Part shown: positions 22,396 through 26,513 of the stretch, one piece after another
How the letters are laid out: each line of letters opens with the position of its first letter
How positions within the stretch are numbered: the first letter of the stretch is position 1
NCBI GenBank assembly: GCA_021840555.1
Contig: JAKBXW010000013.1
Coordinates: 1-32,487, forward strand
Direction of reading: 5' to 3'
Length of the DNA: 32,487 nt
Origin: Nitrospirota bacterium
GTDB lineage: Bacteria > Nitrospirota > Leptospirillia > Leptospirillales > Leptospirillaceae
Position numbers and translations under genes: made by a program
The notes under the pieces: generated by a model
Database searches by the model: none
Told to the model about the DNA's origin: nothing
Seen by the model: only the letters and a program-made list of their open reading frames with translations

Positions 22396-22422
22396 AAAAA
22401 AAAAGAGGGACCGAAGTCCCTC
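22396..22422 (-). terminator. Strong intrinsic terminator of the peptidoglycan-binding protein gene
   Basis: On the minus strand GAGGGAC-TTCG-GTCCCTC forms a perfect 7-bp stem with a stable UUCG loop, followed by nine T. It starts 30 bases after the stop at 22452 and ends 9 bases before the rsmD start. Confidence 0.9.
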
Positions 22423-22451
22423 CCGAAATGCAAAAATCCTAACCGAAGTGC

Positions 22452-22820
22452 TTAGACTCCAAGCGCCTTCTTCGTGGCCTTGTCGAGCTTCCCGGTCGCC
22501 TTCAGCTTGTTGGCCTTCTGGAATGCGGCGATGGCTTTGTGGGTCAGAGGTCCGGGATAACCATCGGCCTTGATCTTCGCACCCTTGGCGATCAGCGCCG
22601 TCTGGACTTTCTTCCAGAATGCGGAAGGACCATGCTTTTTGCCGGACTTGACAGCCTTCTTGTGGGCCATTTTCTTGGCCGGAGCCTTTGCCGCGGTCTT
22701 GGGAGCCGCATCTCCCGCGAATGCGCCCTGAACGGGAAGAAGAATGATGGCAGCCGAAAGTACGATGCCGGAAATTGCAGACCCAACCGTGGCAAGAACA
22801 GTCAATTTTTCTGATTTCAT
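22452..22820 (-). CDS. Secreted lysine-rich protein with a peptidoglycan-binding domain
   Basis: The product has 122 residues. The ATG at 22818-22820 is preceded by a near-perfect ribosome binding site (AGGAGGTGG) eight bases away; the GTG at 22832 lies inside that site and is rejected. Residues 1-35 are a signal peptide ending near VQGAFAGDA. A Lys/Ala-rich linker follows. The C-terminus (about residues 60-122) is a PG_binding_1 domain: FWKKVQTALIAKGAKIKADG, YPGPLTHKAIAAFQKANKLK, ATGKLDKATKKALGV. It should bind peptidoglycan in the periplasm. There is no catalytic domain, so it is not itself a lytic enzyme. Strong promoter, long leader, strong ribosome binding site and strong terminator suggest a highly expressed, controlled single gene. 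Confidence 0.88.
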   Translation of the reverse strand: MKSEKLTVLATVGSAISGIVLSAAIILLPVQGAFAGDAAPKTAAKAPAKKMAHKKAVKSGKKHGPSAFWKKVQTALIAKGAKIKADGYPGPLTHKAIAAFQKANKLKATGKLDKATKKALGV

Positions 22821-23050
22821 CGTGGTAACCACCTCCTTTTATGCCGAATGGCCATCCTTCGCACTGGAAAATTCGGCGTTTGCCAGCGAGCCCAATCCCC
22901 CCGTCACCCGGCGGGGGTTCTCTGAAACATGGATCCGGATCCGATTTGCCGTTCTCTCCTGAAGAAGCTTGCTCTTCCGAGAAGGAACCTCAGGAGAACC
23001 GGCAAGGACCGTATGACCGAATTTCCTTCCGTCACCGGCGATCCGGATTT
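22821..23050 (-). promoter_or_regulatory. Structured 5' leader, candidate regulatory RNA
   Basis: About 230 nt lie between the predicted start site (near 23050) and the ATG. Base pairing visible by eye, with plus coordinates: a 9-bp closing stem ATCCGGATC (23040-23048) with GATCCGGAT (22933-22941), placed right at the 5' end; within it an arm pair GCCGG..TCTCCTGA (22990-23003) with TCAGGAGA..CGGC (22948-22962); a 6-bp CCCCCG/CGGGGG hairpin (22898-22917); stem A CGCTGG (22882-22887) with CCAGTG (22862-22867); and stem B GCCGAAT (22871-22877) with ATTCGGC (22843-22849), just before the ribosome binding site. A and B are interleaved, so they form either a pseudoknot or two exclusive states. I recognise no known riboswitch consensus in it. 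Confidence 0.5.
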
Positions 23051-23056
23051 TTTCGA

Positions 23057-23085
23057 ATACTACCAATGATTGGCTCATGTGTCAA
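23057..23085 (-). promoter_or_regulatory. Strong sigma-70 promoter for the peptidoglycan-binding protein gene
   Basis: On the minus strand a perfect TTGACA (23080-23085) and TAGTAT (23057-23062) are separated by 17 bases. It is the best promoter in the window and predicts a start near 23050. Confidence 0.75.
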
Positions 23086-23282: not shown

Positions 23283-26200
23283 GTGGATGACCTGAAGAAC
23301 GCCCGGGAGAGGGTTGACCTCATTTTTCAGGAACTGCCCCGGCTTCTTTCGGATGGAGAGGCCCGGGTTTCCACTGGAAAAGCGATTCTGGATCTTTTTT
23401 CAGGCCTCTCTTTCGTCGACGCTGTTCTCGTGCGGATCGAAGGAACCTCCTCCAGGAATGCACGGACTTTCGCCTCCCGCTCGTTTCCCTCCGCATCGCC
23501 AGCCGAACGTCGGAATATTTCCTCATTTCTGGAGGCGCTGGGACCTCTTCCCATCGTTCTGAGCCCATCGAAGCCGGGTGCACCCCCTCTTCCAAAAGTG
23601 ATTGAGGCATTTTGCAGGATCCACGGATACCGGGAGGCTGTCTTTCTTCCGCTCTTTTCGCCGGGTTCCTCCGATGGAAAAAGAGGGGGTGTCGCCCTGT
23701 TTCTCCGGAAGGAAAAAGAAGGGGATCTTTTTTTCGACACTCTGGTTCTGAAGGCCTTTTCCCTGCTTCCCCTTCCCCTGCCACCCCTTCCGTCGGATCT
23801 CGACAATCTCGTCCGGTTCTACAAGGCGCTCCACGAAATCAACCATCTGATCGCCCGCCATCCCCCTCCGGAGATCCTTTACGGAGAGGTCTGCCGGATT
23901 GCGGTCAGCTACGCAGGGCTTCGTCTGGCCTGGATCGCGACGATCGACCGCCTGGACCGGAAAGCCCGGATCCTTGCCGCCCACGGTCCGGCCAAAGAAT
24001 ACGCCGAGGATCTCCTGATCACCGCCGATCCGGCCTCTCCCTACGGGAGGGGTCCGGCCGGTCGCGCTTTTCGGGAGGGAACCATCGTCGTGGCCGAGAT
24101 CGATTCCGACCCGGAGTACGAAGTCTGGCGGACAAGGGCCCACCGTTTCGGACTCCATTCGAGCTGCAGCTTTCCCTTCCGAAGGGACGGCCGCATCGAG
24201 GGCGTGATGGGAGTCTATTCCGAAAATCCCCGGTACTTCACACCTTCGGTGGTCGCCCTTTTGAGCCGTCTCTCCGAGGATATGGAGTTCTCGCTGGAGT
24301 CCTACGACCGTTCTTTCCGGATCGAACGGCTTCAGACGCACCTCCGGTCCCTCCTCGAAATCACGGAAGAGATCGCAAAGAAACCTGACGAACAGACGCT
24401 TTTCGACCACGTGACCGCCCTGGCCGTCGAAAAGATCGGCGTCGCCTTTTCGGCCATCATCCTCCGGGAGGGGGAGGATGGCCTTTCCCTGGTTTCCAAG
24501 GCCGGGACACCTCTCGGGTTTGACGAGAGAGCGCGGATGGGTTTCAGAAACCCTTCCGACCCCGCTCCGGTGGCCTTCGGACTCGTCAGCCGGGTCCTTT
24601 CCACCGGAAAAACGGTCGTGGCGGACAGCTTCGCCTGGTCCCCCGCCTTTCTACCCTGGAGGACGCTCATGATGCAAAACGGCATCGTGTCCGGAGCCGG
24701 ATTTCCTCTGCTGGTCGAAGGCGGAACCATCGGACTTCTCGTCGTCGGATCGCGGGACGGGGAGTTCTTCACCGACGAGATCGTCGACCTTCTCGAAAAC
24801 ATGGCCGAAACCATCGCTTTCGCCGTCCAGGACATCCGAAGGAAGAAACGCCTCGAGTTCCTGGGACTTCACGACGACCTGACGGGGCTTCCGAACCGGA
24901 CCTCCTTCCGCGAGCACCTCGAACTGGAACTTCCCAGGAACAGGCCCTTTGCCGTCGCGATCCTGGACATAGACAACTTCAAGGAAATCAACGATTCCAT
25001 GGGCCATGCCGCCGGAGACAGGGTCCTGGTCGAGGCCGCGGCGAGACTGTCGGCGATCCTTCGTCCGGGGGAGCTCCTTGCCCGTCTGGGGGGAGACGAG
25101 TTCGCCCTGATCATTCACAGACGCGATGGCGCAGGCGAGATTGAAGGGTTCTGGAAGGAGCTCTCGCAGGCCCTCGACCACCCCCTCCTGCTCGGAGAAT
25201 TCGAATCGGGGATACTCTCTCTCACGACCAGCATGGGGGTGGCCGTCTCGGTCCCGGGTTTTTCCTCCGCAGGGGATCTTCTGAAGCAGGCGGACCAGGC
25301 TCTCTATTTCTCCAAGGAAAGCGGCCGGAACACATGGAGCCTCTATACCCCGGCCCTGAACGAAAGGGTCGAGCGCACCTTCGGCATACGGCGGGCCTTC
25401 CGGACCGGTCTCGAGGCAGGAGAGATGTGTCTCTACCTCCAGCCCCAGGTCGACCTCGCCTCCGGAGCGGTCCTCGGGGCGGAGGCCCTCGTGCGCTGGA
25501 AGGATCCCCGGACAGGAGAGATCCGGCTTCCGGGGACCTTCCTCCCGGTCGTCGAAACCGACCTTTCCCAGGTCTCCCTTCTCGGAGAGTGGGTCCTGGC
25601 GGAGGCCTACCGCCTCCTCTCCGGCCCCGGAATGGAAAAAGAGCACCTGTCGGTCAATATCGGAGCCCTCCATTTTCTCCACAAGAACTTTCTTTCCCAC
25701 GTGGACTCGTTTCACATGAACCAGCCCGAGATCGGACAGCGGCTCACGATCGAGATCACCGAGGCGGTGGCGCTCTCCCATCTCGATCAATCCGCCAGAA
25801 CGATCCGGGCCCTTTCGGAACGCGGGATCTCCGTCTCCCTCGACGATTTCGGAACCGGCTTCGGCTCCCTTTCCTATCTGAACAGCCTTCCGGTCAGAGA
25901 GCTCAAGATCGACCAGTCCTTCATCCGGAACATGACCTTTCGTCCGGGGGACTTCGCCATCGTGAGCGGAACCATGCTGACGGCCGGGCTCCGGCAGATC
26001 CAGGTCGTAGCCGAGGGACTGGAGGACCTCGAAACGGGACTTTCGCTTCTACGGATGGGCTGCCATTACGCCCAGGGATTCGGGATCGCCCGCCCCATGC
26101 CCGCCACCGAATTTCTCTCCTGGAAGGAATCCTGGCATTCCCCCGAAGTATGGCGAAAAGGAAGTCCCTCCCACTTTCTTTACCGGGGGGCCGACCTTCT

Positions 26201-26513
26201 GATCGCCCAGGTGGAGCTCCGGGGATTCATGCGGGAGGCGTCCGGGATCGGGGGATCCCTCGCTCCGGAGGACCCCCGTCGTCCGTCCCTCTCCCGCACC
26301 CTTCGCCGTCTTCGGGACTGGATGGGCAACGGGCTTCGGCGTTTTGGAAAGTTCGCCGCCTATCGCCGGATCGCCTCGCTTCTGGATGAGGTCGAGACGC
26401 GGTTGCAGTCGTCGTCCGTTCACCCCGCCGACCCGGGAATTTCGGCCATTCTGGCGGAGATGGACAGGAGTTTTTCCGAGCTCGTTGATGCGGTGGAGAA
26501 GGAGCGCCTCTGA
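23283..26513 (+). CDS. GAF-GAF-GGDEF-EAL protein (cyclic di-GMP synthesis and breakdown)
   Basis: The product has 1076 residues from GTG 23283, with GGAGG five bases upstream. There is no membrane segment. An N-terminal region of about 180 residues resembles a weak GAF. A clear GAF domain spans about 184-342 and another about 355-519. The GGDEF domain (about 526-690) has HDDLTGLPNR and an intact ARLGGDEFAL, so diguanylate cyclase activity is possible; its inhibitory site reads RPGE instead of RxxD. The EAL domain (about 718-950) keeps the catalytic set: EALVRW, LSVNIGAL, TIEITEAV, DDFGTGFGS, KIDQSF, VVAEGLED and AQGFGIARPM. So phosphodiesterase activity is likely. The last 125 residues are unusual: WMGNGLRRFGKFAAYRRI echoes a CZB-type zinc domain but lacks His and Cys ligands. 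Confidence 0.93.
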   Translation: MDDLKNARERVDLIFQELPRLLSDGEARVSTGKAILDLFSGLSFVDAVLVRIEGTSSRNARTFASRSFPSASPAERRNISSFLEALGPLPIVLSPSKPGAPPLPKVIEAFCRIHGYREAVFLPLFSPGSSDGKRGGVALFLRKEKEGDLFFDTLVLKAFSLLPLPLPPLPSDLDNLVRFYKALHEINHLIARHPPPEILYGEVCRIAVSYAGLRLAWIATIDRLDRKARILAAHGPAKEYAEDLLITADPASPYGRGPAGRAFREGTIVVAEIDSDPEYEVWRTRAHRFGLHSSCSFPFRRDGRIEGVMGVYSENPRYFTPSVVALLSRLSEDMEFSLESYDRSFRIERLQTHLRSLLEITEEIAKKPDEQTLFDHVTALAVEKIGVAFSAIILREGEDGLSLVSKAGTPLGFDERARMGFRNPSDPAPVAFGLVSRVLSTGKTVVADSFAWSPAFLPWRTLMMQNGIVSGAGFPLLVEGGTIGLLVVGSRDGEFFTDEIVDLLENMAETIAFAVQDIRRKKRLEFLGLHDDLTGLPNRTSFREHLELELPRNRPFAVAILDIDNFKEINDSMGHAAGDRVLVEAAARLSAILRPGELLARLGGDEFALIIHRRDGAGEIEGFWKELSQALDHPLLLGEFESGILSLTTSMGVAVSVPGFSSAGDLLKQADQALYFSKESGRNTWSLYTPALNERVERTFGIRRAFRTGLEAGEMCLYLQPQVDLASGAVLGAEALVRWKDPRTGEIRLPGTFLPVVETDLSQVSLLGEWVLAEAYRLLSGPGMEKEHLSVNIGALHFLHKNFLSHVDSFHMNQPEIGQRLTIEITEAVALSHLDQSARTIRALSERGISVSLDDFGTGFGSLSYLNSLPVRELKIDQSFIRNMTFRPGDFAIVSGTMLTAGLRQIQVVAEGLEDLETGLSLLRMGCHYAQGFGIARPMPATEFLSWKESWHSPEVWRKGSPSHFLYRGADLLIAQVELRGFMREASGIGGSLAPEDPRRPSLSRTLRRLRDWMGNGLRRFGKFAAYRRIASLLDEVETRLQSSSVHPADPGISAILAEMDRSFSELVDAVEKERL

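Follow-up and report, generated by a model that had tools for sequence, protein, structure and literature searches.

What kind of RNA precedes the gene of a small peptidoglycan-binding protein on the minus strand of the window (the whole stretch of 32,487 nucleotides analysed here), and what might it do for that gene? An earlier note had read a regulatory leader at this place, on the plan of riboswitches and thermosensors, with cyclic di-GMP as a guessed ligand. A search for literature on Leptospirillum leaders, or on transcripts of the peptidoglycan-binding gene, found none. The transcription unit is made up as follows:

23057 to 23085, minus strand: promoter TTGACA-17-TAGTAT with an extended -10 (TG before the second hexamer), a motif match kept in relatives.
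22821 to 23051, minus strand: predicted 5' leader of about 231 nt, with its first nucleotide placed by means of the promoter; z of the fold about -2.9.
22832 to 22837, minus strand: Shine-Dalgarno AGGAGG, invariant throughout the clade that carries the pseudoknot described below.
22452 to 22820, minus strand: gene of a 122-aa protein with a PG_binding_1 domain (PF01471, E 1.7e-13; domain search) and a signal peptide-like N-terminus (read by eye).
22396 to 22424, minus strand: intrinsic terminator with a UUCG loop and a run of nine T, conserved in relatives.

The promoter, described as strong in the earlier note, is the only sigma-70-like match between 22400 and 23400, where shuffles yield 0.4, and its TTGACA is unchanged across six distinct close relatives. 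Among close relatives (one near-identical pair set aside), the promoter is 72-94% identical, against 23-52% for the 100 nt immediately upstream; such conservation over diverged DNA supports the predicted transcript start. The leader thus predicted is of very nearly the 230 nt first proposed, and the ribosome binding site that went with it is present, ahead of the ATG at 22820 (minus strand). The entire leader is more stable than its shuffles (z -2.8, with 2 of 200 shuffles as good; z -2.95 in a second run). A palindrome, CCAATCATTGG, lies within the promoter spacer (about 23062-23073), extends to the extended -10 and is partly retained in relatives; it is a possible operator. In the protein, an apparent signal peptide is followed by a Lys/Ala-rich linker and the PG_binding_1 domain. 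The terminator, GAGGGACUUCGGUCCCUC followed by nine T, is nearly letter-for-letter constant in six relatives and, being conserved after the stop codon, suggests that the mRNA is probably monocistronic. Family-wide, the gene precedes rsmD-, coaD- and aminotransferase-type genes wherever the contig permits this to be read. A leader peptide was considered and rejected: the candidate frame, which begins AUGUUUCAGAGAACC, is not retained in relatives.

Upstream in the leader lie a predicted 5' domain and a further hairpin:

22933 to 23048, minus strand: 5' domain closed by P1, a three-way junction P1/P2/P3 by fold prediction, with the same MFE fold in G000, G003 and G001.
22946 to 23005, minus strand: P3, a long, genus-wide, covarying hairpin (alignment of relatives, model search).
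22898 to 22917, minus strand: P4, a G+C-rich hairpin with no U run after it; one pair changes from C-G to U-A in two genomes.

P1 is exactly the 9-bp stem that had been placed at the predicted 5' end: 22933-22941 pairs with 23040-23048 with 100% complementarity, structure begins at about nucleotide 5 of the predicted transcript, and 26 of 2000 shuffles hold a 9-bp Watson-Crick stem beginning within the first 8 nt. It is well retained in G000, G003 and G001, doubtful in other genomes and not clearly kept in G012, the most distant carrier of the pseudoknot. The earlier note was therefore right about the stem closing its 109-nt domain, but it had not singled out the strongest element inside, which is P3. 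Searched with a covariance model (R2), P3 precedes the gene in all 13 genus genomes that were found to have it, with one copy per genome (reverse-strand matches are the same palindrome and not extra copies), and none was seen beyond the genus at E <= 1e-4 among the other genomes of the 198 from the phylum that were searched. Over 12 distinct sequences, pairing holds in 95.8% of cells, against 43-66% in slid versions. Two-sided changes occur in 6 of its 18 pairs, a level reached by none of 500 shuffles, in a control that ignores relatedness. The 5' arm, CUCUCCUGA, is almost constant, while the variation in the 3' arm is of the G-U or compensatory type. The alignment thus provides good evidence that P3 is a hairpin under selection, and by the same comparisons the 5' domain is conserved more in shape than in sequence. 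Two simple roles for these hairpins were examined and set aside. The P3 arm CUCUCCU could have served as an anti-Shine-Dalgarno switch, but in G012 this arm reads CUCUCUU and its P3 partner has changed to match while the Shine-Dalgarno has not, showing that pairing with the latter is not what selection keeps. As for intrinsic attenuation, the sequence shows no U run at either P3 or P4.

The second folded part lies beside the ribosome binding site:

22862 to 22888, minus strand: stem S1 (A), CGCUGG 22883-22888 with CCAGUG 22862-22867, extendable by AAA(A)/UUUU; paired in 6 of 6 distinct sequences, with one G-U to A-U change.
22843 to 22877, minus strand: stem S2 (B), GCCGAAU 22871-22877 with AUUCGGC 22843-22849; paired in 6 of 6 distinct sequences, with one A-U to G-U change.

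Stem B had been described exactly; stem A is real, with its 5' arm one base away from the 22882-22887 first given. The two had been taken for a switchable pair, yet they are compatible with each other as one H-type pseudoknot, and both are conserved. The third loop of this pseudoknot is 12 nt long and ends with an invariant GGCC, followed by AUAAA and then AGGAGG, which places the 3' edge 5 nt upstream of the Shine-Dalgarno with neither stem arm covering it. All 13 pairs are kept in the 6 distinct sequences (7 genomes), with 100% of cells paired against 27-39% when the pairing is slid; the two stem changes are both one-sided and both preserve pairing, and most variation falls in the loop between CCAGUG and GGCC. 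Leaders had been gathered from relatives, as the earlier note advised, for conservation and covariation of its stems, and the outcome is divided: P3 covaries, whereas the pseudoknot stems are conserved but near-invariant, with no two-sided changes and hence no covariation support. By itself the interleaved pair is only mildly unusual, since shuffling the last 70 nt gives an equally good one in 33 of 1000 cases, and across the whole leader chance yields better interleaved stems; the pseudoknot is credible because it is conserved. In 4 of 5 sequences its crude energy (-14.8) is no higher than that of the best nested fold.

How strongly this stretch is conserved is best seen against its surroundings. 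Positions 22821-22889 are 97% identical to G009 and 88% identical to G012; against the latter, 69-nt stretches average 71%, and only 0.24% of them reach this figure. The best such stretch against G012 (22813-22881, 91%) overlaps the element and ranks first in the aligned region, coding sequence included; against G009, a stretch offset by 12 nt is 100% identical, tied with four other stretches. Identity is 38-65% at fourfold sites of the gene and 46-74% elsewhere in the leader (one near-identical pair set aside). Conservation thus exceeds that of the coding sequence and extends about 50 nt upstream of the Shine-Dalgarno, and identity above both fourfold sites and the rest of the leader points to strong purifying selection on the 3' element. 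That the structure is a mere by-product of G+C-rich sequence, with the conservation reflecting the ribosome binding site alone, would fit the shuffle frequency of about 3% for the pseudoknot taken by itself; it is highly improbable given the covariation of P3, the reach of the conservation beyond the Shine-Dalgarno and above coding level, and stem changes that preserve pairing. Judged from these alignments, the leader is a real RNA of regulatory type.

What it might respond to is a separate matter. Predicted accessibility of the Shine-Dalgarno, from folds that cannot represent pseudoknots, lies anywhere from 0.1 to 0.9, depending on the leader, and relatives do not agree; over 25-50 C it shifts by no more than about 0.2 (0.23 to 0.45 in the studied leader). 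An RNA thermometer, in which heat would release the ribosome binding site, could draw on the predicted folds in which part of the Shine-Dalgarno is paired, but so small and inconsistent a shift makes it unlikely: no conserved arm pairs with the Shine-Dalgarno, prediction does not place it in a melting helix, and the leader matches neither FourU nor ROSE elements, so that we hold this reading to be very improbable. The plan of a closing stem with a switchable pair near the start codon is possible but not demonstrated: A and B can form together, no arm lies on the Shine-Dalgarno and its accessibility follows no consistent pattern across relatives.

We do find the general mark of riboswitches, a leader RNA that is folded and conserved ahead of a gene, and a ligand riboswitch is possible. 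The leader does not fit the consensus of cyclic di-GMP riboswitches (GEMM-I or c-di-GMP-II). The Rfam 15 covariance models gave no match in it at gathering score and nothing relevant at permissive thresholds (cyano-S1, E 0.5, is weak, unrelated and outside the leader), in line with the statement of the earlier note that no known riboswitch consensus was recognised. Its cyclic di-GMP guess came from the neighbouring gene. At 23283-26513 on the plus strand, a GAF-GAF-GGDEF-EAL protein (start read as GTG at 23283) diverges from the leader, an arrangement seen only in the closest relatives. In G012, which has the full pseudoknot, and in P3-bearing relatives without it, other, co-directional frames lie upstream (the G007 contig ends before this neighbour can be read). 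As the enzyme gene is not a conserved neighbour, the guess is unsupported. The regulatory-leader reading of the earlier note thus survives as a structured, conserved leader with a pseudoknot at a strong ribosome binding site; the ligand switch is no more than possible, and the cyclic di-GMP link is unsupported.

The pseudoknot is found in few places. Strong matches to its model (R1) occur in 7 genomes only, always before the peptidoglycan-binding gene, and a CoaD and aminotransferase tree, from which G001 was omitted because of its short contig, sets the tested carriers apart by a branch with a support of 99/100. The search for further copies returned weak R1 matches only (best in the family, E 0.01), and those in orthologous leaders are driven by the ribosome binding site and start codon. 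In the phylum, one weak match lies in a distant Nitrospirota genome (L122, G145:C50:45789-45871; E 0.0014). The other half of the genus retains the promoter and P3 with a different 3' region and no pseudoknot; other genera keep the gene behind leaders of 77-79 nt, unrelated in sequence and with no pseudoknot. Since the gene is retained in such lineages, the pseudoknot is dispensable for it in general. Across these alignments the leader is rebuilt between related lineages ahead of one syntenic gene, a point against an old ligand sensor common to them.

Some of the other leaders have features of their own. Those of L047 (about 1397-1473), L048, L049 and L050 (same gene, other genera) are 77 nt long and contain a chain of pairings that exclude one another, AGUC / GACUC / GAGUC / GAUUC, around AAAGGAGGU; their stems are invariant and their loops variable, and they could be a separate small switch. 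Those of L051 and L052 (same gene, genus g3) open with a hairpin CCGGUU...AACCGG at the first nucleotides, followed by GGAUC/GAUCC and by UGAG/CUCA touching AGGAGG, and are more stable than shuffles (z about -3).

A new riboswitch class would make the pseudoknot the aptamer of a small molecule or ion whose binding alters access to the ribosome binding site. The preQ1 and SAM-V riboswitches (PMC11625349, PMC6061858) are translational riboswitches built on an H-type pseudoknot, and the studied leader resembles their plan: a compact 5'-leader pseudoknot near the ribosome binding site, near-invariant stems and joining bases, one variable loop. The similar crude energies of pseudoknot and nested folds also suit a switch. 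Unlike in those classes, the Shine-Dalgarno here is outside the pseudoknot, 5 nt beyond its 3' edge, and covered by no arm, and the leader has neither an Rfam match nor a known ligand; the pseudoknot was found before one gene only, in one clade of one genus, and the product is a structural-type envelope protein, neither enzyme nor transporter. We consider such a class doubtful. Equally doubtful is a broader proposal, in which the 22843-22888 pseudoknot would either be an aptamer, representing a new riboswitch class of very narrow distribution, or bind some regulator, and would in either case control an envelope protein in one lineage of Nitrospirae.

If a protein or small RNA acting in trans recognised P3 or the pseudoknot, this would explain why one arm of P3 stays nearly constant as the other drifts through G-U and compensatory changes, and why the pseudoknot sequence is conserved beyond the needs of pairing; with no known partner and only one site per genome, we find it rather unlikely. 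Pseudoknot leaders do serve autoregulation in rpsO and T4 gene 32 (ribosomal-protein and phage mRNAs), where they control initiation. The likeness is in the leader pseudoknot (a sequence relation was checked via Rfam only), but the product studied here looks exported and not like a cytoplasmic RNA-binding protein, making classical autoregulation unlikely.

The reading that we prefer, at a probability of about one half, is that the small exported peptidoglycan-binding protein is made from a strongly promoted and probably monocistronic mRNA whose 5' UTR is structured, acts in cis and is specific to the lineage. By sitting immediately upstream of the Shine-Dalgarno, the pseudoknot would set or modulate ribosome loading. 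The 5' domain, which begins no more than about 5 nt from the predicted 5' end, would perhaps protect the transcript against 5'-end-dependent decay. A ligand would not be required, and a trans-acting factor sensing the pseudoknot could be accommodated. The E. coli ompA mRNA carries a stabilising structured 5' UTR of this general kind, alike in having structure close to the 5' end of an envelope-protein mRNA with a strong promoter and a good ribosome binding site; the studied leader differs in its larger domain and its pseudoknot, and the strict conservation of its 3' end exceeds what stabilisation alone requires. Messenger RNA decay is the subject of a review (PMC3997798).

The locus offers an orphan leader whose structure is supported by comparison, in which a genus-wide covarying hairpin is joined to a pseudoknot more conserved than its gene. 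The element of about 70 nt gives a small and concrete object on which to study translation control in bacteria for which little genetics is available.
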